Shown one piece after another: positions 4,923-51,488 of a stretch of DNA of 64,000 nt (position 1 is the first letter of the stretch; each line of letters begins with the position of its first letter). Source of the DNA: Lota lota (lineage: Eukaryota > Chordata > Actinopteri > Gadiformes > Lotidae). The notes under the pieces were generated by a model. It had not been told where the DNA came from, did no database searches, and saw only the letters and a program-made list of their open reading frames with translations. Location of the stretch: assembly GCA_026745465.1 (NCBI GenBank), contig JACYXH010000429.1, forward strand, positions 5,291,333 to 5,355,332. The letters are read 5' to 3'. Made by a program: the position numbers and the translations under genes.

Positions 4923-5031
4923 TAATTGCTCCCATCGTATCTGGATCCCTCCAAGGGCTCTTCTCTGTGTGAGTGGAAGTTGAATGTTATTTTTGACAAT
5001 TTATGTGTTGAAGCTTATTAATGACACTGGT

Positions 5032-5083
<52 letters not shown>

Positions 5084-7749
5084 AGGGTGAAGGATGTATT
5101 TGATGGAGAGGAGAGATTGGGGTCTGCTGAGGAGAACTTCTCCATCAGCGAGAGCATGTCGGTCACATCGAGCGACCAGGAGAAGCTCCTCCTGCTCAAC
5201 AAGAACATGGAGCTACGCAGAGTCAACCAGGAGGTACACCTGGTTGACACCATCATAAACAATGCAACACACACACAGCCATTCTGGTCCACCTTGACCA
5301 AGCGGTAGCCGTGACTGCCTGTTTGTGATCCCATCTGGAAGCTACTAATGTGTAGTTCCTCTAACGGCCTATAGGTGGTTCGCAGTGGTTGGATGCGTAA
5401 AGACAGATCACCCCTCTAAGTCAATAGGAAAAATGGGATTTAATTCTCTTAATAAAGCAAATAATTGGTTTCTTTGTTCAATACCAATCTCAAATGTTAG
5501 TTTATCTGCCATTGTATTTATTTTGAGAGGTCCCGTTATATATATCATAAAAGGTTATTACGATTAAATATTAATGAGATGCCATAGACTCCTGTGGGTG
5601 GCCATTAAATTCCCGCCCTCAATGTGCCAAATGTGGGTAGTTTCTGGTTGCAAAAAATGTCAAACAATGGCGGTGCCCATATCGTTAAATCTAAGGCCTC
5701 ATAATGGTTAAACCAATGGTTGATGCCACAGTCCATATGTTTGACAGTCTTTTACCTTGACCCACAAAATGGTTATATGCAGCTCCATTGAAGCAGAGAA
5801 GAAACAACAATAACATGTCATTGGAAGTGTAATAATTATTGTACTGTTTAATATTATATATTATATACATATATATTTTTTTATAATTATTACAATATTA
5901 TTAAATTATGGAGAATATTATCATTATTATAACAATGACGGTTATACATTTTTTATTTTGTACTTTAATTGTTGTACTGTTTTTCATTTGAAATAACATT
6001 ATGCAGGAGAAGATTTGCATACACTTTTTTTGTACACAACATCACATGTCAGAACACTGAACACACTGAATTTGAGGTCCATGCTGCTGCTGCTGCTGCT
6101 GATGATGATGATAACTATGGTGTATGTTTCAGCTGATGAAGCTGAACGAAGAGTGGGACAGGGTCTATCGCAACGCCACCATGGGTCTGCAGCAGAGAGT
6201 TGAGTCTCTGGTTCAGGAGAACGCTGCTGCTAAACAGCTGAATAAACGACTGCTGCTCAAAGTGGAGAACCAACAGGTTAACCCAAACACACACACACAC
6301 ACACACAAACACACATACACACACGCATGCATGAAGCACTCACACATAGGAAATCCACTGTGTGTGCATTTCAAACAATGAACTCATGAAGAGGAAAATA
6401 TGGACTCTTTTGCGTGATATATTGCATGATATATTGTCCTATGTTTAACGTGAATTTATTTGGTCTTACAGAGTACGAGGGACTACTACGAGCAGATCCT
6501 TCAGCAGGAGCTGAAGAAGAATCACGACCTGCATGACTACATCAGCCAGCTGGAGGGCAGAAGCCACCAGAAGCACGCCCACACAGCACGCACCGCAGAC
6601 CAACAGGTGGTTATTCTCTATGCTGAGCTCCTTCAGTGTGTGTGTTTATGTTTACCCATGACCTTCATTCTTTCAAATCCCCCCCCCCCCCCCCCCCTTT
6701 TGGTTTCTTTCCGTGTCCATCCCACAGGGTCTCCATGATTTCGTCCACATCCCGGACCCCACTGTTCCCTCCTCCTCTGATATCCGTGCTAGCCCCGCAC
6801 CCCCATTCTCCAGCTACGGCTCCGGGTCCAGACCTGCAGGCGGCTTCCCCCCCTCCTCGTCCTCTTCCTCTTGCTTCTCCCCGTTCAATCAGCCAGAGAC
6901 AGTACCGCCTGACATGGCGACACACTACCAACCAGACGGAGTCCAGGATCTGAAGGAGCAGCTTGAGGCCCTGAGATGTCAGGTGGGTTGTCACTGGTTC
7001 CAGAATCCCTCAATGTTTGCTTTTTTCTCTTTATTGTGATAGGAAGCTACTGTTGTCATCGCTGCTGTTGCCAGGGGAAGATTTGTGGGCTGTGAGAGTT
7101 TGGCCTACTCGCCTTGTTTTGGTGGTCAATTGGCGCCACCCAGTGGTAATGATTAATAAATCACCGGAAATGGGCAGACGTTGCACGATAGAATGAGAAA
7201 CGTGGGAAAGATTAAATGAAACTAATCTTGTGTCACCAGACGCAGATATATGAAGCAGAGTTTCAGACAGAGCACAAGGACCACAAAAACACACTGCAAG
7301 AAAACCGGAGGTTGAGGAGGAAACGAGAGGAAATGCGTCAACAGGTGGCGCTATTGCAAGAGCAGGTTCGTTCTTTGAAAGAAAATATTATAACATTTTA
7401 TCATTTCAGTTGGCCTTGTGTCTTTCTCGACATTTATGATCAAAGTATTATTTGTGCCTAATTTTTTCAATTAACCCCAACATATTTGTGATGCACGCTA
7501 CAGCTTAAGGTCTATGAGGATGACTTCAGAAAGGAGCGATCAGACAAGCAGGTGCTGCAACGTCTGCTTGTGAAAAAGAATTTCCCCACCAAGGATCCTG
7601 TACTTATTCATCGCTGCAATAACGACACGAAACCGCCAGGTGGCGACAAAGGAACGCAAAGTGGAGAGAGAGCTCACAGACAAAACCATCTGCATTGTCC
7701 CAATCATTGTTACAGCGGTACTCTCACAAATGAGACTTTAGATTGCTAA
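2991..7749 (+). CDS. tnip: TNFAIP3-interacting protein (TNIP/ABIN family)
   Basis: Seven coding exons join in frame: 2991-3127, 5086-5233, 6133-6276, 6472-6606, 6728-6982, 7240-7365 and 7504-7749 (1191 nt, 396 residues). All borders are GT-AG. The product is mostly coiled coil: residues about 75-185 and again about 255-335 are heptad-like and rich in Leu, Glu, Gln and Lys. The last exon opens with the UBAN-type core (about residues 316-335, with [11 protein letters not shown]), which in TNIP, NEMO and optineurin binds linear or K63 ubiquitin. In this family the protein, with A20, damps NF-kB signalling in the cytoplasm. A Ser/Pro-rich linker (exon 5) separates the coils. The C-terminal tail after the UBAN core is short and has scattered Cys/His but no zinc finger I can defend. 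Family call is firm; which paralogue (TNIP1, 2 or 3) is uncertain. Confidence 0.85.
4527..5080. repeat. Cluster of (GT)n microsatellites in tnip-like intron 1
   Basis: Three (GT)n tracts (about 4527-4600, 4871-4911 and 5034-5080) plus a (GT)n/poly-G run (about 4629-4673). The last tract ends immediately before TTACAG at the acceptor of coding exon 2. Open frames here encoding Cys-Val or Thr-His repeats are artefacts of the repeat. Confidence 0.95.
6679..6698. repeat. Poly-C tract in tnip-like intron 4
   Basis: A homopolymer C run of about 20 lies some 30 bp before the exon 5 acceptor (CCCACAG at 6721-6727). It may serve as part of the pyrimidine tract. Confidence 0.85.
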
Positions 7750-8750
7750 TCTAAAATTACCAAAATTACTAATCTAAAATAATATCAAGCTGAAAACTGG
7801 CTGAAAGGGGCGATTCTTTTTCGTTCACTTCATCTTTTTTTACGACCAATCATGTTGCTGGAAGCGGGAATCTGTAAGTGGGTAGTTCGCTATCAACAGC
7901 GAACACGGGCACTCGAGCACTGGTAAATAGTCAAAAAGTGTCTTTAAAGGTTTCAAATCAACAGCATCTGGACTGGTCACTGTAGAAATATGCTTTGAGT
8001 TTCCGGCCCAGGCTCTGTGCCGTCTCCCCCCAGATATTCAGCCATGAAAACGAATTCCCATGATTCCTGATTCTAGAATTGAATATTAATCTAACTCTTA
8101 AAAATGTGACAAATCATTTGATGCCAGCTATTCCGTTTAGCCTCAGCCTTTCAACAGCCAGTTTGCACACCGAAATCTCTTCAGAAATGGCCTTTTCTAG
8201 TTTCTTATGTTCTTTACATATTTTTTTTAATAATGCCTGTATATATTTTTTAACAATTCATATAAATTATGTCATCATATTTGTGTTATGTCATGAACAT
8301 GTGTATCTAACAATAACTAATTTAAAACATTCTCATACAAAAACAGATTTTTCGACCGCATTCATTTGATTTGTTGATGAGGTCCGGATCACATTTAAAT
8401 AAAATGCTCAAACAATCATAATGAGAGATTTGTTACTGAATACTTATTTCTTCACGAAAAAAAATACTTGGCCATTTTCAGTGCACCTGAAATTGTTTTC
8501 TGTTATGCTGGACAGCACATGGTTTTCCCCCAAAACCACTCATTCCGAAATCCATTCACACCCAGTAACATTAACACACGCAGACTCCAACGCACTCTTA
8601 ATATTTGATTCTCGTTCGGTCCTGTTTTCTCCCTCTGCACCTGCATAAAACCCACGTAAAGAGAGCCTTCCGCCGTGGATTCATTACTAGGCCTATTTGA
8701 CTGAAAGAAAGGTTTCATAAGGTTCTGTTGGCTAGGGTTGAATGGTTTAT
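7750..8750. other. 3' flank of the tnip-like gene up to the duplication edge
   Basis: AT-rich DNA without recognisable exons or RNA genes. It presumably includes the tnip-like 3' UTR. This stretch has no counterpart before unit 2, which helps to place the left edge of the tandem duplication at about 8751. Confidence 0.5.
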
Positions 8751-10181: not shown

Positions 10182-10343
10182 ATGAGTGCACAACTTCTAC
10201 AGGACACCTACAACCAGCAGGGTTACATCTCAGGGCTGCCTGTGTTGAGCCCTGCAGAGCTGTCGGACGCCAGGCAGGCTTTTTCTGCCCTGGAGGAAGA
10301 GTTTGGTGAGTAGGCTTACCACAAGAAGGACTTATGTGGGAGT

Positions 10344-10384
<41 letters not shown>

Positions 10385-12053
10385 TGTGGGTGTCTAAGTG
10401 TGTGTGCAGCCAATTCATATGTGACTCCAAACTCCACAGAACAGACAACCAGAGTTAAACCGGTACTCACTTGGGTTATTTATGCCTAACATTGACACAA
10501 CGTGACACCTTGCTTACCACACAGGTAAGGAGTACACCCAGTACAGCCTGCATAATGTTCACCTTCAATACCAGTGGGTGATGGATCTGGCCAAGAACCC
10601 CCGGCTACTGGAAGTGATCAATGCCGTCATCGGCCCCGATGTCCTACTGCTTGACTCTCGCTTCATCTGTAAATACCCAACATCCGGCGTTAGGCCTACG
10701 ACGGATCAGGCTGACGGGACTGTCCAAGACACTCAGCTCCCCTATGTGGCCTGGCATCAGGACATGAGGTACACTATACATCCTGTAGGGGTCTGGGTTC
10801 CACAAGACATGGTTGATCGTGTTGGATAACTGTGTTTTGTGTGTGTTTCTGTGTACAGGTATTGGGGCATCGATGGAGGCCCGGTCCTCTCTGTGTGGCT
10901 GGCTCTGGATGACTCGATGGAGGATAACGGAGCTCTGAAGGTTATACCAGGTAACACAGCTTTTGATTTGTCTCTTCTAACACTCTTCTATCAATCACTG
11001 CATTTATGGGCCTTATTTAATCTTGGTTCTAAAGCCACTAGGTATATAAGGTTCATCGGCACATAATAACTTTATTTTCTTCTCGTTCCTTCATTCGTCT
11101 TCTTCTTTCTTTCTTCTCGTGCTTTCGTTCTGTCATTCTTTCAGTCTTTCTTTTATTTATTTCTTTTTCATTCTTTCTTATCTTTCCTTCTACATACAAT
11201 TATTCCACCAGTTGTTTATACCAGTGCCGCCTCATTGCTCTTACAGGGAGTCACCGCGGCGGCATGTTACCGCATGAGCTAGCTAAGCGCCAGGGCAACA
11301 TGCTGTCGGTCAACCAGGAGATCCCAGAGGACCTGGTGGACAGCGGGAAGGCTGTGCTCTGTCCTCTGTTGGCCGGACAGATGTCTGTAAGTGATGAATG
11401 TTTGTTGTTGTGTTGTATGTGAGGCCTTGGCTGTGTTTCATACTTTACCTCTCTTACGAACACCAATGAAATGCTCTCATATACTGGCGAACGTTCCTTC
11501 ATATAACACTGAGAATTCTCACACATACTACTGAAATTACTTAGTAGTTAGTTACAAAATATGCAATAGTATGTGAAAGGATTTTCAGTAGTATGTGAGG
11601 GCATTTCACATGTATATGTGTGAGAGGTAAGGATGAAATAAGGCCCATCCGGCCCCTCATATGTATTTGGTGAAGTTGGTCTTACAATTCAATACATGTC
11701 TTTTGGCCTATATATATTCACGGTCCTGTGGCAACTTGTGTAGACCCATGACGGATTCCTGGTCCATGCCAGTGACCCCAACACATCCCAGAGGAGGCGC
11801 TGTGGTCTGGTCATCCGTTACGTCCCACCCTGTGCATACCCCATTCATGTGAGTACAGCAAGCCTTTCCACTTTTATATCAATGATGAGGTCATGCACAT
11901 GGGTAATGCCGTCTGCCCGTCTTTGGGTTCATCATCGTGAGTTGCTGACTCTATCTTTGACTCCACCTCCGATAGGACCCTGACCGACCCAGGAAGTTCC
12001 ATGCAGTGGTGTTGGCCAGTGGAACAGACCAGTTCAATAATTTTTCTAGCTGA
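10182..12053 (+). CDS. PhyH-family Fe(II)/2-oxoglutarate dioxygenase, unit 1
   Basis: Six coding exons (10182-10305, 10525-10768, 10859-10950, 11247-11386, 11744-11848, 11976-12053) join to 783 nt, 260 residues. The fold is the phytanoyl-CoA dioxygenase-like double-stranded beta helix. WHQD at about residues 118-121 supplies the iron-binding H-x-D. The distal His is probably H208 in GFLVHAS, followed by an Arg cluster at 217-219 suited to 2-oxoglutarate binding. In this family the enzyme hydroxylates or oxidatively cleaves a small substrate using O2 and 2-oxoglutarate, releasing succinate and CO2. The overall look is nearest to the short PhyH proteins often labelled hypophosphite-dioxygenase-like, not to peroxisomal PHYH; I see no peroxisomal signal. 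The substrate is unknown. A polyadenylation signal lies at 12256-12261. Confidence 0.85.
10344..10381. repeat. (GT)n in PhyH-like intron 1, unit 1
   Basis: A (GT)n tract of nearly 40 bp. The unit 2 counterpart (about 41540-41562) is much shorter and interrupted, so the tract has changed since duplication. Confidence 0.85.
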
Positions 12054-13457: not shown

Positions 13458-15077
13458 CTAGGCCAGTTTCAGCACCTCTGAGACCATGACACCTATGCCG
13501 TCGAACACCTCGTGGAAGGCAGCGTTGCACATGAAGGCACTGGTGGTGACCAGCTTGTTCTTCACGTCCACGTGGGCCTCTCCAACGTTCTTGTTCACGT
13601 GCGTGCAGCCCATATCATTCATCACGCCGGCCGTCTGGGCGTAAGGCCACCTGGGCAAAGGAAACCAAAAAATACAATTAGAAATTTGTTGCCTTCATTT
13701 ATTACGTAATTGGTGCCTTGAGCATAGTGTTTTTTGCAAGTAGACATGTTGTCGTACAATAAACAATTAGTTAAACAATAATGAACAACACGGTACTAAA
13801 GACCTTTTCATACGAAAAGTGAAAATGTTCCCCTTTAGTGCACGAGAAGCCCTTTATAAATAAGGTTTGATCTGAAGATTGATTAATTGCTTCCTCGATT
13901 GATAATATCATACAAAGTGTCTGCAGGTGGATCACAAAGTCCCCATACTTTTCACACTCCTTGTCTTGGCCCACGGTGATCTCACAGCCAGGCAGAGCCT
14001 TGGCGGCCAGCACGGGGGAGATGCAGCACATGGCCAGTGGCTTGCCCGCCTGTCTGAAGGCCTTGATGAGCTTCTCGACCTGGGGCTGGATGGTGTAGTC
14101 CTTCCCCTTCACCGCCCAGTCGCTCAGGTTCTTAGCCACGCCGAAGCCCCCTGAAGAAGGGAAGGGAAAATTAGGTGGGGGAGGGGGAATAAAAGATAAA
14201 TAAAATAAATCGGTGGAAATGAAAACATACAAAAATGAATGAATGAATGCACATAATTAAACACAATACAAAATAAAACAATGACCAAATCAATCAATAC
14301 ATGGTTCCTACAACCGACAACAGTAACGTTCAGTTAGGAATTATCCAGTACATGGTCTGGATTGGGAACCAAACGAACCTGGGATGATGAGGGCATCGAA
14401 GTCTTTCACGTCCAGCTTGGCCAGGTCGGTCACGTCGCCCCTGGCGATGCGCGCGCTCTCCTGCAGCACGTTGCGCTTCCCCTCCGCAGGCTTCCCCTCA
14501 CAGTGGTTCACCACATGCATCTGGTCCGTGTTGGGAGCGAACATCTTCACCTGGTAAGGTGACGAGGGAGGATCATTTAGAAATGCCAAAACCATGGTGT
14601 TACCAACATAGTGGAGGATTCTGTGTATTTAATGTGAGACAGACACTTAGGCACCAGCATACAGACAATGATATAAACCGGATATCTCCCATTGTATTTT
14701 CCACGTACATTTTTCTTAGTTTTATTATATGCCTTTGCTATTTCAGTAAACAAGCAGCCATTTTTCCCATGACCAAAAGGAGCATAGGGATCTTGCTGAA
14801 TGCCTACAGGTAGACGGCAGCCATCGCGGTTCTGACCCACTACCTTTAGAACCCAACACCTAGACCGCCCTGCCCCCCCATCGTTTAACGAATAACCACG
14901 GTCACTGTCGTGCCAGTCCCTGCAGTGATGCTAGGCGTCTAATGGCCTTTAACCTTCTCCACATTATACCTTAGCTCCGGCGCGACTCAGGTGCACGAGC
15001 GTGGCGGAAGCCTCATGGATCTCTGTGCCATCATACACTCCACAGCCAGATAGCAGCACTGCGACACGCTTCACCAT
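13458..15077 (-). CDS. gatd3-like: ES1/GATD3-like protein (DJ-1/PfpI superfamily), unit 1
   Basis: Four coding exons on the minus strand (14970-15077, 14379-14550, 13949-14150, 13458-13650) join to 675 nt, 224 residues. The N-terminus [16 protein letters not shown], the [16 protein letters not shown] elbow with Cys135/136 and the C-terminal AHVD..N..VTT.AFMC are ES1 (C21orf33/GATD3) signatures. Glu19 and the elbow Cys match the DJ-1/PfpI-type site. The biochemical role of ES1 proteins is not settled; glyoxalase-like or deglycase-type activity has been suggested for relatives. Mammalian GATD3 is mitochondrial, but this form starts with [13 protein letters not shown] and has no room for a presequence. 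A non-coding first exon (donor after 15794, acceptor before 15082) contains no ATG that could add one. It shares a divergent promoter region with gene A. Confidence 0.88.
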
Positions 15078-16368: not shown

Positions 16369-16404
16369 TGACGTCAGGGATTGGGTGTCCAGAGTGAATA
16401 TAAA
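16369..16404 (+). promoter_or_regulatory. CRE and TATA box of fusion gene A, unit 1
   Basis: A consensus cAMP-response element TGACGTCA (16369-16376) is followed by an inverted CCAAT (about 16379-16385) and TATAAA (16399-16404). The start codon at 16437 is only 33 bp after the TATA box, so the 5' UTR must be a few bases long. All three motifs are kept in unit 2. Confidence 0.65.
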
Positions 16405-16436: not shown

Positions 16437-19400
16437 ATGGCTCAAGACTCGCGCGCTGTTCATTTTCCAGTTGGCATTTTAGGGATCTCCAGTGGTAAGA
16501 ATATATTTATAATTTTGATGCGTACGGTTTTGTCTCTAATTTGATAACACTTATCTAAAGTAGACCATATATGTAAGTATAATATTACAGAATAATTATT
16601 ATATAATATATTAATTAATATTTATCATTTAATTATGTTTAATTGTGGTGATGTTTAAAAAATACTTAACTGTAGACCTAATTGAAAACCCTTATAGGGC
16701 TATGCCTGCAATGAAATCCGGCTATTAATGCAAGCATAGTTAGAAATTATTCATACAGAAAAACAAAAAACTATATAGAACATAAAACAATTAAATAAAT
16801 AATGTAGTATTATTGTTACAAAGTAAAACAAAAAGGTAGGATCCTTAACTCAATTGCAGTGTAGCCTACTGCGTTGATCATTGGGAGGTGCAGCCCGTGT
16901 AAAAGTCTGAGGGAATTTTATTTTCAAATGACGGTGATGCAGATAGAAATCTGATATCACTTTTTATGTTGAACAACAGGTTCCCTGCTGCTTCTAGTAA
17001 ACAACTATGCCAGCACTCCTGGGGAAGACTTCATTCCCCAGACGGCACTGGGGATTCTGCTCCTAGTGATTGCTGCTGTTTTAGCAAATGCTGGTTTGTT
17101 TCACGTTCTAATCAACTGGAATATTAGCAGATTTCCTTCATTAATGTATTCATATTCAAGAAACTTACTCCACTTCCCTTCCTCTTTTATTTTCCTCCAG
17201 GTGTCCTTGGTCTCTCCCACGGCCAACTGTTTTCCCTCGTGTGTCTGACAGTGTCTGGGCTATGGTGCGGCTCAGGCCTGGTGTACATTCTAGCAGGACA
17301 AGGGATCCTTCAGCCCGATGACTTAAAACCATCCCTGGTTCCTGGCCTGGCTGCTTTCACCCTGGCACTCATCCTAATAGCTATTGTAGCACTCTTAGCA
17401 AAGAGAGCTGTTCTCTTTATCATAGCGCTAAGCATTAGCCTAGCATGCGCCCATCAAATAGCAGGCCTGTCGGCCACCGGCTTTGCCCAATCCGCCACGG
17501 CCGCTAACTACCTCTTTGTCTGTATGGTGGGGGTCTACTTTGGCGTTGGACACCTGTTGTCTTACATCACCCATGGTAAGGTGGAACTGGTCGCAACGTG
17601 GGCGAAAGAGAAGTCTGTTCAGAAAACGCAGCAGGACCCAGAATGCACCAGCATGATGTTAGTAAGCCTGGTGATGAACCTACTGGCTGCTTCCGTGCTA
17701 GCTTGTCCGCTGCTAGGTGTGGTTCCTCAGCTCTCCACGGGTCACGTGCCCTGGCTGTGGACGGCCGGCGTGTTTCAGCTGGGCATGTGCGTCCTCTCCT
17801 ACCGTGCCATGGACACGCTCGGAGCCACCTTCTCCGGCTTCATGGCTCTGCTGAGGTTTGCCGAGGGCTACACTGCGCTCCTGACCCTATACTCCATCCA
17901 GCCCTATTCCCCCGTTCCTTTCCCCGTCGTCTTCTCCGTGCTGCTCTTCATCACGGCCGTGTTCAGCAGTCAGAAGAGTCTGCTGGAGGGTGTGTACCAG
18001 CTGTTCTTTGTGGCTTACTGTATCGCCATCGCTGTAGAGCCCCGCGGCTTCCTCCAAGGAGGCACCCAAGGCGTGCAGGCGGCCATTTTTGTAGTCTCCG
18101 CTGGCGTGTTGTTTGTTTATGCTCTTAATATGCACTTTAGCAGGAGGATTCCTACAGGACAGGGCCTGTTGAAGGCTTTGGTGAGCAGGATGAATGCTCT
18201 CACTCTTAGACCCCAGGACAAAGACCTTCACGCGCCTTATCTGGGCCTCTCCAAGTACGCTGACGCGGAGGTGTTGGGACATGCTTGCAGTGTGCTGGCT
18301 GCTTTCGCCATCACGGCCACCGTCGGTGACAAGGGTCCGCTCTTTGTGCTGGTCCTCCCCTGGGCGGTGGTGGCTGGCGGGGTGCTGCAGATGCTTTGTG
18401 GCAGTGTGTGTTTTGCGCGGGGTAAGACCTTTGAGAGCACCGCCTTTATTCTTTATGGCGTGATGTGGGTCGTATGGGGGCTGACGCGATACGGCGGCCT
18501 GTATGGTGAAAGCAGAGGGTTTAACGTGGCTGTAGGAATCATTTGTTTCATGCTGTTCAACGCTTTGGTTACCGTTGCGGCGCTGTTCCTGAACGTGGCT
18601 TGGTTTGCCTATGCGCTGGCCTTCCAACTCATTCTGATTAGCTTCCTGCTCGACGCAATTGGGTCCCTGCCATACGGCTATGACATCGGGGTCACTATCA
18701 TCTTTGGCCTAGTCAGTTTCTATTGTTTCCTGGCTCACCTGTTCAACGGCACCTTCCAGTCCCCCCAGATCCCTTTGGGACAAGCTCTGGTCAAGTTGAG
18801 TGGTACAGGGGGAAGCAGAGATGTTTGCCTGCATGTACCAGCTCGGAAGGCTGCCTCCGTCAACCAGATTGCAGGTGAGGGAGCGTAGGCACAGTTCCAT
18901 AGAAGTATTCCTTGGTGAAATCTTCACGTTGTAATTTATTGAATATGTCATAAAACTAAGTATCTTCCTTCTCTTGCAGAAATCATGAAAAATGGTGGCA
19001 TATGTGGAATGCCGACAGATACAGTCTACGTGCTTGTGGCAGCTTGCAACAGGCCGGATGCTGTTGTCAAAGCTTACAAGTCAGCTCATTATTATTTTGA
19101 TTATATGGTTTATTCTGATGCATACATATATTGCATTTTCCCCGTTGCCCCATTGTCTAATGATTGCATTGGATATACTTGCAGGGTGAAAAAGCAGGCC
19201 CAGGATCGGCCCATGTCAATGTGGATCTCGTCCATAAAGCAGCTGGAGCCGGTCAAGCACCTGTTGAGCCCCCTGCTGCTAGATTTCATGCAGGCTGCAT
19301 GGCCTTCCTCTATAAGCATGGTTATACCCAGAGGTAATGACTGAATATGTTTATATTTTGTGCACTGCAAAAAAAGGATGTGCATGTGAAATAACAAAAA

Positions 19401-20269
19401 TAATATGTGGGCTGTGTGTGTACCACTCCAAGATTGACATTTGATTCCTCTTTCAGGGCCCTGGCTGGATGCCTTTGGTTTAGGAGAGGCAGCGAAACAC
19501 ATTGGAACCCCACAGAGCATTGCAATCAGAAACCCAGACTGTACTGTTGCCACACATCTCATTAATATGGTAATCCCTCAGACTGAAGTCATGGTCTCGC
19601 TGATTTCCACAGTGGCACATTCATCCCACAGGCAGAATGCTATATCCTCTTGACTAAACTATGGCTTTATTATAGGTAGGACCAATAGCTGTTACATCGG
19701 CTAACCCTACAGGGGAAGCAGACACAACTCATCACAATCAAGTGTACGCCAAACTGGGAGACAAGGTGATTGCAAGGAGTGATATACTTTTTACTTTAAT
19801 GAATCACTATTGAAATAATTAATTGGAATCAAATCAAATATCATAACGATTCCACAAAGATGGAAATAACTATAATATATCAACTCATCTAGGTCAATGG
19901 CATACTATGTGATGGGCCATCTCCAGAAAACATTGCTTCTACTGTGGTAGACTGCACCAAGATTGAAACGGGACATATTGGTTTCTTCAGGGTGGGTCTC
20001 ATCCCAAAATCAAAGGTAAAATATTCCCCTTAAGTTGAATCCCTTTAGAAGAAAAACACAAGTACTCTTTCTTGCATGGTTTTGTTGTGAGTTAACCACA
20101 TTCTTGTATGCATCTTTCCTGAAAGGTTCTGCACATTTTTGAAGAGGTTCAAAGACGACACAGGCATGGGGAAATGAATCCTGCTTTTGAGGGGGATATT
20201 TCAGACACACAAAGAAACGCTGGTATAGATGGAGAGATCACAGAGGAGCCTGAACAAAGAAATGAGTGA
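16437..20269 (+). CDS. Fusion gene A: 18-TM SatP-like repeats plus YrdC domain, unit 1
   Basis: Nine coding exons (16437-16494, 16980-17093, 17201-18874, 18980-19079, 19185-19333, 19457-19569, 19676-19765, 19893-20015, 20126-20269) join to 2565 nt, 854 residues. Residues about 10-585 hold some 18 hydrophobic helices. I read these as three six-helix repeats (about 10-195, 203-380, 408-585). Repeats 2 and 3 share the end motif IP[TL]GQ[AG]L[LV]K and a PW..(V/T)AG(V/G).Q segment that resembles GPR1/FUN34/YaaH (SatP) channels. Residues 616-854 are a YrdC/Sua5 domain: MPTDTVYVL at 626-634, TSANPTG at 743-749. YrdC enzymes make threonylcarbamoyl-AMP from Thr, bicarbonate and ATP for tRNA t6A. Here the usual K-x-R is K651-K652-Q653, so this reaction is doubtful. 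Function of the fusion is unknown. Polyadenylation signal at 20299-20304. Confidence 0.85.
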
Positions 20270-20304
20270 ACCACAACTCCAAGGAACACTTTCACCTGAA
20301 TAAA

Positions 20305-21510
20305 ATCATGTATGAGTAAAAGTATGAAACGCATCGCTCATAAGCAGCATTATTGGTGGCCATACAAAGTGATAGACTGCTATGACACAAGAGCATGTGC
20401 TACTGCATAACTATGAGGAAAGATGGACTTAATAAGGTTTCCTCGATCAGTATATAATGTCATAAATAATAACATATCATTTAAATGTGTATATAGAGAA
20501 CAGAAGATCATAAGCAATCTGAAAATATATTTTTTACAGTATACAAATGTGCGCTTGTTTTAGATGAATATTGATACAAATACTACCATGCCAAAAATGC
20601 ATACAGGAATTATTTGTAATTTCTTTCTGATAATGTAAATTATTAGTGTTGGTTTATTGTTTTTGTATAATTTAAGGTTTTTTCAAACTGCCAGATTTTC
20701 TTAATTAAAATATGAAGTGTTTTATTTAAGTAGAAGAACAAATCTTACATTAAACCTGCACTATTACCGCACTGTTACTTTATAAATGCTAATGGCGGTG
20801 TTTCTCATGTCACTGTCTTAACCATAATTAGCTAAAAGCTTGTTAAAACGGTTGCAAAATGAACATGGCAACGTAGATGTGCCTCCAGTTAACTTAGCCC
20901 AAATGTACATAAAATGTCAATAATATAAAAATAAACAATGTAATATATACATGGATATATGTATATGACGTATATTATATATATATAGACATATGTTTTA
21001 TTATCACAGTGCCTGTTCAAATAAAAGAAAAAGGTTGTTTTGGTTTTTGCCAGAAAGTAAAATAAAAAGATTACAACTAGTCACACTAAACTGACAAGGT
21101 TGTCTTCAACCAGCCTCAATCCCATCATGGAGGCCACCACCTCTGTATATTGTACCTTAGGTGTCTTCCAGATATGTATGAGACTTCTTAAGTGATTCTA
21201 TTAAATGCTCATTGTTTGAATATCCATAACTACACAATTTAAACACTGTACTTAGTTGTATTTTGAAGTTAGTTTTAATAAAATGTTCTTATTTTTCTAT
21301 TTCAACAGTTTTTCTTAAGATAGTACTCGTAAAATGTGGTTTTGATTTACATCTGATTTACATCTGACATAGGTAAATCTACAGTATATTTATGTAAGAT
21401 TCCAAACACTAATGTATATAATGAATTCTAAATTATTTTCTGTAGATATTGATCACTATGTAGATATTTTATTCAGTTCATATAATGGCAACTCTTATAC
21501 CTGTGTATGT

Positions 21511-21592
<82 letters not shown>

Positions 21593-22918
21593 TTGCGTGA
21601 TTATATATCTAGGGAGTGTGTTATGGACTCAAGGATGTAAAAGAGTGGTCTAAGCACATTTTTCCAGGAAGAAGAGTCCTGGATGAAATTGTACAATGAC
21701 TTCATCAGACAAATAAAGTTCAGCAACTGATTTTTAACCAGAAATATTTGTATCAGATGTTTTAGTGAAACCACGAGGGGTGGTTTGACTAGTTTGACCA
21801 ACCTTGACAGGCATTGTCCTTTAATAGGAGTTTATATGGTGTGTGTGTGTATGTGTGTGTGTATGTGTGTGTGTGTGTGTTTGTGTGTGAATGTGTTTGC
21901 GTGTGTATATCTTAGGAGGGTGTGTTATGGACTCAAGGAAGTAAAAGAGTGGTCTACGCATATTTTCCATCAGTGTCACTTGAGTCCTGGAAGAATGACT
22001 TAATCTGACAAATGTGCAATTTATAAACTGTGTGACTAGCCAGATCCATTTCCTGTATCTGTTACACATCTTTCCTGGTCCTTCCAAATACCTAGCTTTG
22101 GGGGATTCTTTTTACAAAATCAATACTTTGTTAGGTTGTTTTATAATGATCGCTAGATCACGTCCACATTTTTCTTAGTCTCCGGGTCCACGTTAAATCT
22201 GTCCTCTACTAATATACTATGAGGCGCATACCTCTAAACTGTGCCAAATATAACAAACTGAAACACAGAGTATTACCCAATGTCTGTAATATTTATTGAC
22301 TATTATCTTATATAAGCACAGGAAAATAAACTTTCCTAATTTGATTAACATGTATTACAAGAATATGTTCTTAAGAAAGGAAACAAAAAAATATATAATC
22401 TGAAATGCAGTACTGCTGTCTGAAAATGTAACTACTTCAATATTTGACAAACACGCTCTATATAAACAATGGTTGGTTCACACAATAAATCTGGATTATT
22501 ATTAGAACACCATGTGTTAAATAATAATTAATGCAGTTATACATTTATTTCAAAGGGTCGTGGACCCTTTTCTTTCTATATTTTAAAGAAACGTTGAATG
22601 GTTTCGTCCTGATTTCGGGCAGATTTTCCATCACACACTTTTGAGATCCTTTCATTTCATTGTATTTGAGTCGTAGGCCTCCAGCAGTTTCTGTGGTGCG
22701 GAGTTACTTTTGTTTACAGAAGTCCACACAATGCATATTGTTGAGCATGATCCACTTCACTCCAGTTTGCGGTTACCCCACCCTATTCCACTGGACATTC
22801 CTACACAAAGCCCTTCTTTATATTCATAGGCTAACTTCCTTTTACAACATTCTTTTGTAATTGCTCATGAGAAGACACAATAGAGTTAATATAACAAAAG
22901 CTGTATTCCAAACCGCTA
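20305..22918. other. 3' flank of gene A, unit 1: no gene recognised
   Basis: AT-rich DNA without splice-framed exons. A segment of roughly 60 bp containing 'gtgttatggactcaaggatg' (about 21601-21662) recurs at about 21904-21965 with a (GT)n block before each, forming two imperfect tandem units. Unit 2 has only one such block. About 97 bp near 20430-20530 are absent from unit 2. Confidence 0.55.
21502..21588. repeat. (GT)n microsatellite, unit 1
   Basis: An almost pure (GT)n of about 87 bp. Its unit 2 counterpart (about 52624-52745) is roughly 120 bp. Confidence 0.95.
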
Positions 22919-22919
22919 A

Positions 22920-24120
22920 GACTTAGACTTAGATTTAGATCAACTTTAATGTCCTCAAAGAGGCTATTTGTGGTACAGCTCAGAACACACAGACACATCA
23001 ACATCAAAAGCACATCCGACAAACAAAAACAACAGTCCCAGATCATCCATAGCATCCATCATAAACAACTTTACAGTTCAGGCAGGCATTTAAAGTGCAT
23101 GTCAAGAACTGCACACCAACAATTACCACAAAAAGAAATAGCAAGTACACTGCACATCCCCTATATATCCATGTATATCACATCCCCTAGTCCATGTATT
23201 TCCCCGGATTCCCCATGGCTACCGCATCTTGTTTAATTGAGTTATTGCCATGGGAATAAATTAATTTTGTGCTCGGTTGGTTCTGATCTTGGGGTATCTG
23301 TACTTCCGACCAAAACTAAGTGGCTGGAACTCCACTGAAAGTGGATGGGATGTATCCATACAGACCTTGTTTGCCTTCTCAGTCGGCCTGGTCAGGTACA
23401 GCTGATACAGGTCAGCCTGCTGCTCCCCCATGATTTTCCCACAGGTCTTCACAATTTTTCCTAATTTATAAAAGATTATTTTATTTTATATATATATTTT
23501 AGAGTGTTTTGCTATCAATGTTAAGAAAGTTCCGTTTTCTAAGAAAATAAAAACGCTGTTGGCCCTTCTTAAAAATAGCATCAGCACATTAGTCCCAAGA
23601 CAGTTTGTGATCTATAATAAGACCAAGGTACTTATACTCTGTCACCACCTCAATCTCCTCTCCTCTGGTCCTAGATAGAGTGGGTGGTGGAGCATTGCGT
23701 CTAAAATCTAATATCAGTTCTTTGCTCTTGAATATGTTCAAATTCAAATGTGAGGCCTCACACCAGTTGACGAAGTCATTTCAAACTGGACCATGTTCTA
23801 CTTCATCCTGCTCCAATAAGCTGACCAAAGCTGTGTCATCCGCAAACTTAATTAGATGGTGTCCAGGGTATCTGCTGCGACATCAGTACGTGTATGAAAT
23901 ATATAGCAAAGGTGACAGCACCCTGTGGTGTACCAATAGAGGTAAAACGCACCTCTGACATAATGTTGCCTACCGTTAGCTTTTGAGATCTGCCCATAAG
24001 GAAATCCAAAATCCATGTGATCAGTTTTGAGTCTAATCCAAACTCTTTCAGTCTGTCAGCCAGGATTAATGGGTGGATTGTATTAAACGCAGAAGAAAAA
24101 TCTTATGAATCGCTTATTCA
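22920..24120 (-). mobile_element. Degenerate L2/Rex-like LINE fragment (RT C-terminal half), unit 1
   Basis: Read on the minus strand, the segment encodes pieces of a non-LTR reverse transcriptase in the right order. They are DFSSAFNTI (near 24085), GTPQG, the catalytic FADDTALVS (about 23830-23860), a DFRRN stretch followed by VTEYKYLGLIID, and the typical C-terminal HPLS.EF.PLSFGRKYR..K.RTNR (about 23265-23340). After it comes an A/T-rich 3' tail with repeated 'cttaga' units near 22920-22945. Stops and frameshifts make it inactive. The same copy is present in unit 2 but split. Confidence 0.8.
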
Positions 24121-25552
24121 GTTCATATGTGTTGTTTTTCTTCACCAGTCAAGGTTTTTTTTTCCTAATTTGTATGGTGGGAAATTGTGTACATCCCAAT
24201 AATGGTTTGCAAGGCACCACTCAGGGAATAATAAACCATTTATATTTGACGTAAATCTGTTGATTTTCTTTTTTCCCGTGTCAAGAACATACATTAAGTA
24301 ATTGCCTAAACAATTATAACACTAACATTAACAAGATATACAACATTAACAACAGCTTAAAATAATTACAATAATTGCTAGCATCTCTAGCTAAACACTT
24401 GACAAAGTTCCTGCAAGGCACCGTTTGCTAATCGTTCTCAAAAAGCGTTGTTTGTTGGTAAAAAAATGCCGGTTTTACTTTTATTTCAAATCTGCAGCAA
24501 AAATAGAATGAAGATCTTCGTGGCATTCAACAATCATCAAAGATCTTGAGCCCTTGAGTGTGATATCACTGCGAGATTTTCACATAGGTTCACGTTTCTA
24601 AAATTTGTGTAAACTAGTCTTTCAGCTTCAGATGCTTTGTAGAGAGCCTTGAACACTGTCTCATTTGCATTTTGGATGAAAGTTTGCACAGCAACGGCTG
24701 CCTGAATAGTACATGTATAATTTGTGATTGAGGACTTGCTTTGCAGTGCCAGAATTCACTTAATATTATCAACAATATCAACTTTGAGAAGATGTGTCAA
24801 AAACATATCTTCTGTATTATTAACTTTTTGTGGAAGACTGTCTCGGGCTATATGTCTCAACTCAAGATATTTGAGTTAGTGGTGTACAAGTACAACTCGA
24901 ACTAATGATGTATCTTTTTTTGGACATCATTAGTAACGCCATTTCAGACAAAACAATTTATTTGCAATGAATACCAGAATAAACCATAATTCAAAATATA
25001 TACAATAGAAGCAGAAAAAGCAGAAGCAAACCATTTTTAAATACATATTTTCAAAATACTTTCAATTTACATCTATATCAACCAATATAGTCAATCAATA
25101 AATACTAACAACAATCGTCTGACACAAATGCTTTGGTAGTTATGATAATGTAACATAAGGCAAGTTTACTGTGGTAAGCATGTCCGATCCCTAACAGCTA
25201 CCACAAGGCATTTTGAGTTTCCCATCTGATATGCTTCTATTGGTCCCTGTCACGCACACCAAACACATTACAAAAAGCACCAATTGCTTCACTCCATTGA
25301 TTAATTACATATGTTTGTGACAATCTCATAGTGAATTACCTTTTCACAATAAGGATTACAATAAGAGGCTGGATGAGGAAAGCCTCTTGGTTGTCTGCAT
25401 TGAAAAGGAGAATCCAATAAATAAATGCAGGGTATATCATTCTCATATTAAATTATCCCTGAGGTGAGTTGATGGGTAGATTTCTGGAAAACAGCCAGCG
25501 AGAACCTCTCGAGATATACTCTGAGAAAGACAGAAAAGGTCTGTGCAATTAT
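24121..25552. other. 3' flank of gene B, unit 1: no gene recognised
   Basis: AT-rich non-coding DNA. A block of about 380 bp (about 25092-25470) has no counterpart in unit 2, where the flanking sequences are joined directly near 59381. Confidence 0.5.
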
Positions 25553-28500
25553 TTACAGCATTTGACTTTTCACTCTCTCAAAGATCTGTTGGACCTTCAC
25601 AGCAGGGACACACCCCTCCCTTACAATGCCAATGGTACCTGTGGGGAACAAACAAATAAAAACGGTGATGGTTTAATGTGATGCAGGATCGTCACTGGAT
25701 TGGTTCAGAATTTGTTGGGTAAAAGATGGTATTCATTGTACCTTCATCTATCTTCAGGCAGTTGACCACTGTGGAGGCCACGACTTCGTTAGAGTCCCCG
25801 TCACACAAAACCCCTTGGATCTTGTGTCCTAATCGGCTGCAAGCAAATGCAACAACAATATAATGAATTACAATGAACAACAAAACCAAAATGATTCAAG
25901 AACAATGGTGTAGATGTGTGAGGGGCTCCACTCACCTGAGGACCATGGAGTGGTGAGTGCTGTCAGGCTCTCCGCTTGGATTGGCTGACGTAATGGCAAG
26001 AGGTCCGGTGAGATCGCACAGATGTCCGGTGACGGTGTGGTCAGGGACTCGGATCATGATGCTGTCTTTAGTTCCCACGCGGTCGTACGCCGCCCCGACA
26101 CCTATGCAGGACAAGTGAACATTAAAGTAAATCCTGAAACTCTCATTCAAATCCTCCCTCCCCCCTTACTTTCATATCAGCAGCCAAGTCCTACCCAGTT
26201 TGTAGAGCCAGTCGCCTTTGCTCACGATGCAGCTGACGCCTCCAGGATAGACGCTCCTCATGAACTCCCACAGCAGAGGGCTGAAGGGTGGCTTGGCTGC
26301 GATCAGCTGTTCCACGCTGGAAATGCAAATACAGATTGGCTTTTCTGCGGGCCTATCCTGAAACAAGGACACGGAGCACAAGTTTAGCATGTCCACGTAC
26401 GCCAGCCTTCTTGAAAATGATCTTTCTTCAAAGTATGGATTTCGCTTACTTTGATGTTGTAGATCTTCTCGATGGCCTGGGGATTCTTGCAGGAGGCAGC
26501 CAGGGCATACACTGTGTCAGTGGGAATACCACAGACGCCACCTTCATCCAGGAGTTTGGTTATCGTCAAGAGGCCACTGGTGAGCCGGGATTCAGCCACA
26601 GGGCAAGGGAGCTGAGGGTTCTCCTCGTGTTTCTTCTGATCCTAAAATCATTGGAGATTTGTGGTTAATCAAATGTATTTTGTAGAATAGCATAGAACAG
26701 AATATAATATAATATTCAGTCACCTTGAGTAGGGCTTGACCCATTGGGAGAAATCTCTGTGGGAAGATGCAATTCACCAATGATGCAAGGGCTCCATATA
26801 TACAGATGATGGAAAGTATGGCAAGCATGGCAACTGAAATAGAAACAGCAAGTATTAGAAAATACTTTCACAAATGGATTCTAATAATATTAGACATCAA
26901 CAAGAAGGGGGGGGGGGGGAAGGGTTGCCTACTTTCTAGTTTGTATGGAAGTTGCTGCAGGGTGGAGAGCAGAAAACACACCAGTACCACCTCCATGATT
27001 GTTGTTAAAAACAGCAAAACCAGGTTCCTATATGAAGCTGCCAAAAATAAAAGTGTATCACCAGTTAATCAAAATACTGATATATCCATCTTTATCTTTG
27101 AAATAAGTTTGCATCTGAGCTTACCGATTAGCATAAGGAATCCATTGATTACCAGGAATGCAATAGCACCTGCTGTGAACCCATGGGCTGCCATTGAAGA
27201 CAACTGGATCAGAACACCTGTAATGGAATTATGTGTCACTTAAAATCAAGCCAGTCACACTGTCGAACAGTCATACAAATGACAAATAAATAAACCCCAA
27301 ATACAAACAAATGAATAGCCTACCTGCAAATCTAAACCAGGTCCATGTGGCCCACACCACTGCATAGAAGAAAGGGATGACAGACCCAAATCGCCCTCCG
27401 CCACGGATCTGCACCTGGCTCACGTATCCCTGGATAATAGCTCCGGATATCAATACCCAAGGCACGGTCAGATGCAGGAAGTTGGAGTTAGTGCTGGTCG
27501 AACTGGCATGTAGCGCAGAGAGAGCCGCCACTCCGTTGGAGATGTAGAAAAGAGCTTCTGGGATCTGGTCGTTTTGAGAAGCCTCCCCAGGGTCTCTGTG
27601 GTCAGATCGGCCACAGCTCAGGATCCTTTTGAGCTGGTCCGTGGAGACCGGCTGGGGTCCTACCGGGATCAGGGACTTCTCGGCGATGGTGTTGATGAGG
27701 CGTGAGAAGGTGCCATAGAGGGAGGCTGCAGTGAACAGGGAACAGGCCACACCGAAGAAGATATAGTATCCCTGCAGGGGGATCTGAGGGATGCTGGAGA
27801 TTGTGAGCAGGAGGAAGAGCGTGTTGTGGCTCAGCTCCAGGCAATCTGTGTTCAGGCTTCCCACGCAGAGCACCAAGGCTGCAGCCACAAAGAACCAGTT
27901 CCCCACCATTGCTTCCCGTCCAGAGGACACTATATTAGCATCATCAATTAGCACAGATGCTACGAATTCCTCCCAGGCTTTGATAAGCCAGTAGGTCACA
28001 TGGAGACCAAATTTGGTAGCATGGTAGCAGTCTTGGCGGAGGTGGGCGTAGTAGGTGGCGAGTAGCTGGGCAGCGGAGATTATCGACACCCATGCAACTC
28101 CTAATCCAAAGGATTTCACATAGCCGAAGCAGTAAAAAGCGAAGATGAATGAAGAGACAGTGTCACAGAAGGAGCCCAATGCCATTGGCTCGGCATACTT
28201 TGTGTTCTTCTTCTTTTCCTGGCCGATGCTCTGTGCGCTGGCTGAGTTAGCTGTTCCAAGAAGAAGGACATTGAATAGGGGGGTCCCAAAGCCTTTCAGG
28301 GCTAGGCGCTGAGTCAGCCCTTTAACCAGAAGTGCAGCTGAGCCATAGATGGCAAATATCAGAATGAGAAGCTCCAAGATCCCAGCGACAACTAGGGCCC
28401 ACGAGTTGGCCACCAGTGCCACTGCTTCAAATATTAATGTGAGTGTGATTGCTCCAAACACAAAGGGCATGATGTAGTTTACTGTGGCAGAGCAAAATGC

Positions 28501-29140
28501 AAGGAGAAACGAGAGGAGGATATAAGGCACCAGACCAGAAATAGCTGCCTCCTGTATTGACAAAGACGAAAGTAAATCAGCGGTAACTGAAGTGGTATTT
28601 ATGTGAGACAGGTTGCTCATCAGGTTGGTTGACATATTGTTTATCATATCCTGTTGCACTAGTATTGTTGTTGTGACAGCTCCAGTTGCAACACCGTTGT
28701 ATATTCTGGTAGCACCATAACTACCCCAGAGAGCAGCATAGCCAATAAAGGCGGTTCCACTCAAATGGTCATATTTGCGAAAGGAAAGCAACCCGGCGAC
28801 CAATTGACAAATTCCACCAATCAAAATAAGGTGTACACCTAAAAAATAGATGAGAGAGAACAACAATTGTTAGAATTGGAATATAGGTAGAATTAGATAT
28901 AAAGATTAGGTGCAAGAATTTTGCTCAATATCTCTTCGTTAGTACTATAGACAAGTAAAAGACAAATAGGTGGGACGATTTACCTGCAAGAATGTTCTCT
29001 ACCCCTACTGGTGAGATTCCAGTCCGCGCTGCATGGAAGTTTTGTAAAAGTACAAGAAATGCACTGATGCCATTGGCTAACATGCCTAGAACCCCTGGTT
29101 CGCCATAAAAACTGGCTGGAAAACCGTTAGAATTTGCCAT
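25553..29140 (-). CDS. Fusion gene B: 18-TM SatP-like repeats plus YrdC domain, unit 1
   Basis: Ten minus-strand exons (28984-29140, 27324-28838, 27125-27217, 26933-27037, 26724-26833, 26450-26641, 26195-26357, 25936-26101, 25742-25836, 25553-25638) join to 2682 nt, 893 residues. Residues about 12-660 hold three six-helix repeats starting near 12, 267 and 478. Repeat 1 has EPGVLGM, like the NPAPLGL start of SatP proteins, then IGGICQLVAGLLSFR and GTAFIGYAALWGSYG, the clearest SatP-type signature. The loop at about 135-155 carries three N-glycosylation sequons (NMS, NLS, NTT). Residues 661-893 are YrdC/Sua5: GIPTDTVYAL (698-707), intact K724-D725-R726, TSANPSG (816-822). Threonylcarbamoyl-AMP chemistry is therefore possible. 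It is about 40 residues longer than A, converges on A, and stands head to head with acod1. Real substrate and role are unknown. Confidence 0.87.
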
Positions 29141-30337: not shown

Positions 30338-33183
<2,846 letters not shown>

Positions 33184-34517: not shown

Positions 34518-34687
34518 AGTTCTGTTTTTGCGGACAGTTCCCACCATTGTGAGCCATCTTTTTAGAAGCTCCTGGCCCAGGTTGTACGAAGTGATAAAAT
34601 TGCGACATTATATTATTATAATGTGACGTGTTATATTGTGCCATGTCGAGCACGACCCTCATGCCCTGATTCTTCTCTGGGGCACCT
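34518..34687. repeat. Interspersed repeat, copy a
   Basis: A segment of about 170 bp starting 'agttctg' and ending 'ggcacct' recurs in the same orientation at 39742-39928, where its end lies at the unit 1/unit 2 junction. The two copies differ by scattered bases and an insertion of about 15 bp. Confidence 0.85.
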
Positions 34688-35435
34688 CCAAGCGGCTTTC
34701 CAGTATAAACCTGCATGTTCAATGCATAGCTGGAGTCTGCAACATGGTTGAAGAAGAGTTCCAAGCTTCCCATGGCCATGACCTTTTATATATTAAATTA
34801 TTTAATTGGTTCACTTGTTCCCCCATTCCTTAATCCCTATATAGTGAACACTATATAGTGCACTGTTTAGGGAACAAGTAAGGCATGGAATCTTGACACA
34901 AATTATGTGTGGGAACTCTATTCCAGTGAAGTGCTCACCCGTAGATGCCGGCCACCTTTATTGATGAGACCAATGTAAATGAAAACCGCTATTCATCATG
35001 CGATATAGTGTGGAAATAAGCAAACATTGGTTGTACACTTATTTTATGGTGCATTATGGGTATTAATTAGTGCACTATAAAATAAGGAAACAGATTTGAA
35101 CACTCAAATTTCAGACATCACTAGAAAATGGCAACGCTCCAAATATTGCATTTTAAATTGATGTGTGAATCAATTAGAAAACGGCAAAGTTCATTCATGA
35201 GGTCAATGAAGAGAAAACTCAGCAGTTCCAGCCCACTAGGCTTATCATTTTCATCGTTAAATTTGTTTTGGCGTCAGTAGTGCATGCAGTTTATTATATG
35301 CAAACATAAACTCTTTTATAGGAAGTGTGTGCTGTTAAGGGGTATATAAATGTTTGACGTCCTTGTGGCGCTGTCTGGATGAAAACAAACACTGAAACCA
35401 TGACTCTAGTAACAAGGAACTCCATTTGCCACGTC

Positions 35436-50600: not shown

Positions 50601-51488
50601 ATATGTGGGCTGTGTGTGTACCACTCCAAGATTTACATTTGATTCCTCTTTCAGGGCCCTGGCTGGATGCCTTTGGTTTAGGAGAGGCAGCGAAACACAT
50701 TGGAACCCCACAGAGCATTGCAATCAGAAACCCAGACTGTACTGTTGCCACACATCTCATTAATATGGTAATCCCTCAGACTGAAGTCATGGTCTCGCTG
50801 ATTTCCACAGTGGCACATTCATCCCACAGGCAGAATGCTATATTCTCTTGACTAAACTATGGCTTTATTATAGGTAGGACCAATAGCTGTTACATCGGCT
50901 AACCCTACAGGGGAAGCAGACACAACTCATCACAATCAAGTGTACGCCAAACTGGGAGACAAGGTGATTGCATGGAATTATATACTTTTTACTTTAATGA
51001 ATCACTATTGAAATAATTAATTGGAATCAAATCAAATGTCATAACGATAAGTAATTCAACTCCATAAAGATGAAAATAAAGGAAATAACTATAATATATC
51101 AACTCATCTAGGTCAATGGCATACTATGTGATGGGCCATCTCCAGAAAACATTGCTTCTACTGTGGTAGACTGCACCAAGATTGAAATGGGACATATTGG
51201 TTTCTTCAGGGTGGGTCTCATCCCAAAATCAAAGGTAAAATATTTCCCTTAAGTTGAATTCCTTTAGAAGAAAAACACAAGTATTCTTTCTTGCATGCTT
51301 TTGTTGTGAGTTCACCACATTCTTGTATGCATCTTTCCTGAAAGGTTCTGCACATTTTTGAAGAGGTTCGAAGACGACACAGGCATGGGGAAATGAATCC
51401 TGCTTTTGAGGGGGATATTTCAGACACACAAAGAAACGCTGGTATAGATGGAGAGATCACAGAGGAGCCTGAACAAAGAAATGAGTGA
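47629..51488 (+). CDS. Fusion gene A: 18-TM SatP-like repeats plus YrdC domain, unit 2
   Basis: Exons 47629-47686, 48160-48273, 48381-50054, 50160-50259, 50365-50513, 50655-50767, 50874-50963, 51112-51234 and 51345-51488 join to 854 residues, the same length as unit 1. I count about nine amino-acid differences. Most are in the membrane part, including a cluster near residues 145-170 (IAS for IAG, GRS for AQS, S for C) and T for A near residue 400; one is in the YrdC domain (M for T in IE[TM]GHIG). The altered K-x-Q at the YrdC active site is the same in both copies, so it predates the duplication. An additional copy of exon 9 lies about 1.95 kb downstream. Function unknown, as for unit 1. Confidence 0.85.

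Follow-up and report, generated by a model that had tools for sequence, protein, structure and literature searches.

Vertebrate ATO proteins of ~900 amino acids (aa), which fall into two clades and consist of three six-helix Gpr1/Fun34/YaaH domains followed by a C-terminal Sua5/YciO/YrdC domain, were published in June 2026 (PMC13316224). AlphaFold models of some vertebrate homologues contain three six-helix domains, with a TM-score of 0.82 to SatP for one of them, and the same paper already contains the hypothesis of a two-chain, six-domain ring. Bacterial SatP is a hexamer (PMC8471396). Here, two fusion genes of this type, termed A and B, and a second copy of each (A2 and B2) were analyzed in a 64,000-nucleotide stretch, termed the window, of the genome of the ray-finned fish Lota lota (GenBank assembly GCA_026745465.1, contig JACYXH010000429.1, positions 5,291,333 to 5,355,332 of the forward strand). 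The products of A (854 aa) and B (893 aa) fit the published proteins, and an architecture of three repeats plus a YrdC domain is regarded as certain. Added by the present analysis are the loss of the KxR motif from the YrdC domain of A and the presence of both genes in a duplicated block with acod1. Our preferred, tentative reading is that A and B would be carboxylate permeases which serve ACOD1 by moving itaconate or succinate and in which the YrdC domain is cytosolic; that they are carboxylate permeases of some kind is likely.

A preliminary description of the window, made from the sequence alone, had proposed this architecture, made no mention of the neighbouring acod1 gene and knew of no function described for the architecture. 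The architecture had in fact been published, and the function was left open in the discussion of that paper (PMC13316224). The ACOD1 setting was not found in print. The terms itaconate, irg1, acod1, synten-, neighbo- and zebrafish have zero occurrences in the main text of PMC13316224, and no published link of the YrdC fusions to itaconate was found in open-licence PMC papers beyond the co-listing of irg1l with a YrdC gene in PMC6980646.

Gene models and repeat architecture

Models of the four genes were drawn by eye with the aid of splice landmarks and without a gene finder. Gene A (positions 16437 to 20266, + strand) has 9 exons and gene B (25556 to 29140, − strand) has 10. The intact copy A2 (47629 to 51485, +) also encodes 854 aa, 10 of which differ from A, and the intact copy B2 (59466 to 63054, −) encodes 894 aa, with 19 substitutions and one extra residue relative to B. 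As A and B are convergent and no exon of either was modelled between 20.3 and 25.5 kb, the interval from 16437 to 29140 contains two genes and not one. Introns are GT-AG throughout and the frames are open; the genes are of vertebrate type, with introns, and the gene content is that of a ray-finned fish. In all four copies a single open spliced frame runs from the hydrophobic part into the YrdC domain, as had been claimed for A, B and their duplicates, and separate genes for the two parts were rejected on the basis of the frame and splice sites connecting them. Comparison of A with A2 detected 10 non-synonymous and 14 synonymous differences (non-synonymous divergence, dN, 0.0052; synonymous divergence, dS, 0.022; dN/dS, ~0.24), and comparison of B with B2 detected 19 and 23, respectively (dN, 0.0094; dS, 0.036; dN/dS, ~0.26). 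Given intact frames and a dN/dS of ~0.25, the possibility that the copies are pseudogenes was rejected.

Repeats, loops and linkers were delimited by visual inspection. In A, the repeats (A_r1 to A_r3) were placed at residues ~1-193, 194-400 and 401-605, with the YrdC domain at ~606-805; in B, the repeats (B_r1 to B_r3) were placed at ~1-240, 255-470 and 471-668, with the YrdC domain at ~684-890. Assignment to the SatP/GPR1-FUN34-YaaH family was borne out by Pfam, in which PF01184 (Gpr1/Fun34/YaaH) matched residues 441-582 of A, within A_r3, at 27.6 bits (cut-off, 25). The match to whole B, at residues 11-224, reached 21.9 bits and was below this cut-off, and B_r1 given alone reached 33.1 bits; PF01184 was absent from the other four repeats when each was run singly. 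Pfam matches of single repeats to DUF1615, Per1 and UL84 were rejected, as the scores were under the cut-offs of these families.

A profile was built from 12 pieces, namely the six repeats of both copies, the A_r1, B_r1 and B_r3 pieces being cut at exon ends. Searched against 177,635 PDB sequences at an E value of ≤10, this profile had two matches, both to SatP (5ys3, 1.2e-8; 5zug, 3e-8), and another transporter family was rejected on the basis of this restriction to SatP. The 5ys3 match extends to the common end motif, which reads LPIGEAHLV in SatP and IPLGQALVK in A. With B_r1 as a single query SatP was found in the PDB at an E value of 0.027; with whole B as the query no SatP was found at ≤1. 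SatP differs from the fish proteins in having a single repeat and no YrdC domain. The sequence motifs reported in the preliminary description were present: end motifs are located at residues 374 (IPTGQGLL) and 581 (IPLGQALV) of A and at 652 (LPMGQALL) of B, in which IPVGPQPV at 443 closes repeat 2, and both EPGVLGM and GGICQLVAGLLSFR occur in B.

The repeats were not equally well supported. In local alignments of repeat pairs, with window-shuffled sequences as controls, z scores of 14.3 (A_r3/B_r3), 6.4 (A_r3/B_r2), 5.7 (A_r3/B_r1) and 4.5 (B_r2/B_r3) were obtained, and the remaining 11 of the 15 pairs scored ≤2.1. Global scores against SatP exceeded those of shuffles for all six repeats (z of 7.3 for A_r3, 5.8 for B_r2, 4.9 for B_r1, 3.5 for A_r1, and 2.5 for both A_r2 and B_r3), the value for A_r1 being reached by 2 of 500 shuffles. 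Global alignment of seven further pairs gave z scores of 11.5 for A_r3/B_r3, 2.2 for A_r2/B_r2 and ≤0.6 for the other five. A_r1 had no clear signal against the other fish repeats in local alignment (z ≤1.8). Comparison by hhalign with a core of A_r3, B_r3 and B_r1 gave 63% for B_r2, 22% for A_r2 and 0.2% for A_r1. Self-comparison by BLASTP detected no internal repeat in A or in B. These analyses support A_r3 and all three B repeats as SatP-like and do so weakly for A_r1 and A_r2. The observation made in the preliminary description is thus confirmed, and its interpretation is supported as a whole, with this reservation about the first two repeats of A and with the two-chain hexamer and a single transcript per gene regarded as hypotheses.

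The YrdC domain

The YrdC domain was readily recognized. PF01300 (Sua5/YciO/YrdC) matched most of the domain in A (6.8e-31, 107.6 bits) and in B (8.8e-36, 123.5 bits), against a cut-off of 25.1, in agreement with the family originally assigned. Functional YrdC proteins have a KxR/SxN signature (PMC3223725, PMC10321239). The tetrad is intact in B, with K-D-R (IKDRPAEKP) and S-A-N (TSAN). In A and A2 the SxN element is kept (TSAN) and KxR is altered to K-K-Q (VKKQAQDRP), a change of Arg to Gln. In comparison with the threonylcarbamoyl-AMP synthases Sua5 and TsaC, the fish domains further differ in being fused to a membrane protein and in scoring under the cut-off of the NCBIfam equivalog TIGR00057 (106.7 for A and 118.6 for B versus 123.2). 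The domain in B may be catalytic, and that in A probably is not in the standard way.

These data bear on two alternative explanations of the fusions. According to one, the proteins are membrane-tethered threonylcarbamoyl-AMP synthases, in which the YrdC domain of B works, supplying threonylcarbamoyladenosine (t6A) synthesis near the membrane, and the repeats serve mainly as an anchor. In its favor, A and B are most alike in the YrdC domain (92 of 200 residues identical, or 46%, versus 22-26% for the repeats), and B has kept both signature elements. It is rendered improbable by the loss of the KxR Arg from both A and A2, by the TIGR00057 scores, and by a further PF01300 gene on contig C826 of the assembly. 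As the latter is taken as the ordinary YRDC, the fusions need not be a t6A enzyme. Furthermore, the repeats are changing no faster than the rest of the protein, with 15 of the B/B2 substitutions located up to residue 668 and 4 beyond. The second explanation is a channel gated by nucleotide or bicarbonate, in which the YrdC domain would bind ATP, bicarbonate or an acyl-adenylate and gate the pore without turnover. A conserved domain that has lost a catalytic Arg in A and not in B would suit such a gate, as would its position directly after the best conserved repeat pair (A_r3/B_r3); set against this, the KxR Lys and SxN are still present in A, and we regard this explanation as quite unlikely. 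Under the preferred reading, ATP, bicarbonate and an amino acid are possible substrates for the YrdC domain of B, and that of A, lacking the KxR Arg, may be weakened or act as a regulator.

Charge distribution agrees with a cytosolic YrdC domain. The six linkers following the repeats contain 33 Lys plus Arg and 20 Asp plus Glu in 268 residues, and the six stretches taken as loops 3-4 contain 5 and 11, respectively, in 142 residues, as expected if the linkers and the YrdC domain are cytosolic. Both the N and C termini are predicted to lie on this side.

The acod1 block and its duplication

An acod1/irg1-like gene of 6 exons (30338 to 33180, +) encodes a cis-aconitate decarboxylase of 505 aa, residues 44-501 of which match cis-aconitate decarboxylase structures (7br9, 4e-165); MmgE/PrpD domains were recognized in the protein. 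This gene and B are divergent and lie ~1.2 kb apart, ATG to ATG. A long CT repeat (~32155-32255) was observed immediately 5′ of the last acod1 exon and is also present in the second copy. Two other genes accompany the fusions, a PhyH-type dioxygenase gene (10182 to 12050, +; 260 aa; PF05721, 1.4e-23) with a second copy at 41377-43238 (+), and a gene of the ES1/DJ-1-PfpI family (13461 to 15077, −; 224 aa; 1oy1, 7e-53) with a second copy at 44649-46264 (−). For these neighbouring open reading frames a Pfam match was obtained once they were spliced, short pieces giving none.

All five genes are carried by a head-to-tail tandem duplication of a 31- to 34-kb block. The first unit spans 8751 to 39928 and the second extends from 39943 to ~74186, past the end of the window; aligned pieces of the two units are 86-97% alike. 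The second unit has open copies of the PhyH, ES1, A, B and acod1 genes, the second acod1 (505 aa, 502 identical) lying just beyond the window end. Owing to unshared sequence at 54.6-58.0 kb, the two units change in register by ~3 kb. An alternative explanation, independent of any functional reading, is a false duplication in the assembly, with two haplotypes placed end to end, in which case A, B and acod1 would each exist only once. The likeness of the aligned pieces and the direct abutment of the units (39928/39943) are as expected for such an error, and the change in register and the dS of 0.022-0.036 for the fusion genes count against it; these last two features also suit an older tandem duplication, and we consider an assembly error unlikely.

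The 575-Mb assembly of 867 contigs was searched and the best candidates were scored. No further copies of the fusions were detected among these candidates, using the large exon of B (E ≤0.001), the large exon of A (E ≤1) and PF01184 (E ≤1), the last of which recovered A copies only. Similarly, the PhyH protein matched only its two block copies at an E value of ≤0.001 among the candidates scored. A 14-mer in a TATA context, AGAGTGAATATAAA, is located upstream of A (16391 to 16404, +) and also upstream of A2 (47583, +), B (29498, −) and B2 (63386, −); these four sites are all those in the window and are probably a shared ancestral TATA region.

A second acod1 locus was found on contig C592, where the gene is 53-61% identical by exon. 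An ES1-family gene (C592:754741-756604, −) adjoins this acod1 at a distance of 0.5 kb, as compared to ~15 kb in the window, so that each acod1 locus includes an ES1 gene; ES1-family matches in the assembly were on C429 (two), C592, C695 and C100. This arrangement points to a linkage of ACOD1 and ES1 that is of long standing, and ES1 may have a part in the metabolism of itaconate. Exons beside the C592 gene were tentatively read by eye as CLN5-like and FBXL3-like, and CLN5/FBXL3 surroundings are the mammalian ACOD1 neighbourhood.

Some other features of the window were recorded. Exons at ~5000-7750 (+) resemble by eye a coiled-coil protein of the TNIP/ABIN type, presumably of the NF-κB pathway; Pfam gave no match for the two pieces submitted. 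Transposon-like frames, also assigned by eye, are located at 55811-56746 (+; hAT-like), 57342-57971 (−; gag-like) and 34519-34785 (−; piggyBac-like), and the first and third had no match in Pfam. The frames at 55811-56746 and 57342-57971 lie between A2 and B2, in sequence without a counterpart in the first unit.

Cargo, location and expression

Candidate constriction residues were read from alignments of the repeats with SatP, in which F17 and Y72 were presumed to be the SatP counterparts of the FLY constriction described for yeast Ato1 (PMC13316224) and Leu131 is named in PMC9409672; for the weak repeats the alignment is itself uncertain. In the order A_r3, B_r1, B_r3, B_r2, A_r2 and A_r1, the F17 position reads S, N, N, D, gap and I (Phe in 0 of 6), the Y72 position Y, Y, Y, H, M and S (Tyr in 3 of 6), and the L131 position F, I, F, L, Y and I (Leu in 1 of 6). 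Hence, the constriction differs largely from that of SatP, from which Gln50 and Trp76 are each retained in 5 of the 6 repeats; the NPAPLGL motif is degenerate. An opened constriction, produced by L131A in SatP or L219A in Ato1, leads to succinate transport (PMC9409672), and the absence of the constriction Phe from all six repeats was counted for the preferred cargo. Passage of itaconate through MCT1/4 occurs mainly in the monocarboxylate form, by a path common to lactate and succinate (PMC12658120).

Published zebrafish data place likely homologues of A and B, si:ch211-153b23.3,.4 and.5, in the company of irg1l. In the top 50 differentially expressed genes of Shigella-infected zebrafish, irg1l is listed with.4, which is named YrdC domain-containing protein-like, with.5 and with a PhyH-like gene, the direction for each gene not being seen (PMC6980646). 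After treatment with iron oxide particles, one module had five hub genes, three of which were irg1l,.3 and.5, again without the direction per gene being seen (PMC11140123), and in one perfluorooctane sulfonate (PFOS) group the top five up-regulated genes included irg1l,.4 and.5 (PMC9228135). A further table records mixed changes for.3,.4 and.5 (PMC8877790). The irg1l gene responds to external bacteria, and an epithelial response has been suggested (PMC3206475). Proximity to acod1 and co-listing with irg1l suggest, without proving, that A and B transport itaconate or an acid resembling it. When the linkage, the joint listing and the altered constriction are taken together, itaconate or succinate is our best guess for the natural cargo, one that could well be wrong.

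In an alternative explanation, A and B are permeases for carboxylates such as acetate, lactate or butyrate, and the linkage to ACOD1 reflects shared immune or epithelial regulation only, itaconate not being a substrate. In line with this proposal, the cargoes of those Ato proteins that have been studied are acetate and further monocarboxylates, lactate among them (PMC13316224). The co-listing also admits another origin. We take krtt1c19e and cyt1 to be skin keratin genes. Both are also present in the Shigella list (PMC6980646), and co-listing may thus reflect a tissue programme. This explanation has to contend with the carriage of ACOD1, A and B by one duplicated block and with the constriction Phe, in place of which each of the six repeats has another residue or a gap, and we regard it as rather unlikely.

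With respect to location, three N-glycosylation sequons (residues 120, 128 and 133) lie within 14 residues of B, in the putative long loop 3-4 of its first repeat, and B2 retains all three. These were counted for a surface route, and B may, with caution, be viewed as a surface or endolysosomal protein routed through the endoplasmic reticulum. Under the preferred reading, A and B would be vertebrate proteins of the Ato/AceTr type, with three tandem SatP-like six-helix repeats and a YrdC domain that is TsaC-like and lies in the cytosol. A pair of chains would plausibly form a SatP-like ring of six domains, conducting small mono- or dicarboxylates at the surface or an endolysosomal membrane. Both genes would be switched on with ACOD1, and their products would export itaconate or succinate from the cell or deliver it to a compartment.

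Several observations weigh against this reading, for which the gene neighbourhood and the co-listing are indirect evidence. In addition to the TIGR00057 shortfall, NCBIfam AceTr_1 scores of 24.2 and 25.6 bits did not reach the equivalog cut-off of 50. Three sequons in 20 residues were reached by 35 of 2,000 shuffles of the B membrane part, the B total of 3 is no excess over a shuffle mean of 4.1, and the single sequon of A (573) is on the predicted cytosolic side. Common control with ACOD1 is not favored by the promoters: AGAGTGAATATAAA occurs upstream of the fusions only and not of acod1, and, in a motif count without a chance control, a C/EBP-like site was present in B, B2 and acod1 and not in A, and no NF-κB-like site was present in any of the promoters counted. 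No match to A, B or PhyH was detected on C592 among the best candidates scored. The homology of the zebrafish genes is based on names, the YrdC label and company and not on alignment. Mammals have ACOD1. The fusions are absent from mammals (PMC13316224) and, therefore, itaconate biology does not require them. AceTr variants with an opened constriction favor succinate import at low pH and exhibit none at pH 6-7.5 (PMC9409672). Finally, irg1l is listed without the fusions in the F2 low group for perfluorooctanoic acid (PFOA) (PMC9228135), and the fusions are listed without irg1 elsewhere (PMC7083608, PMC11489432).

A wider proposal, which we consider doubtful, is that the block is a vertebrate itaconate cluster. 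ACOD1 would make itaconate, A and B, as dissimilar subunits sharing a single pseudo-hexameric ring, would transport it across a surface or phagosomal membrane, PhyH and ES1 would process itaconate or its products, the YrdC domains would couple transport to ATP and bicarbonate, and mammals would have lost the transport arm. The ACOD1 block and the co-listing with zebrafish irg1l provide a testable substrate and setting for the ATO-YrdC fusions. If this is right, a vertebrate would have a metabolic gene cluster that serves innate immunity, and animals would be shown to make use of a microbial family of acetate channels.

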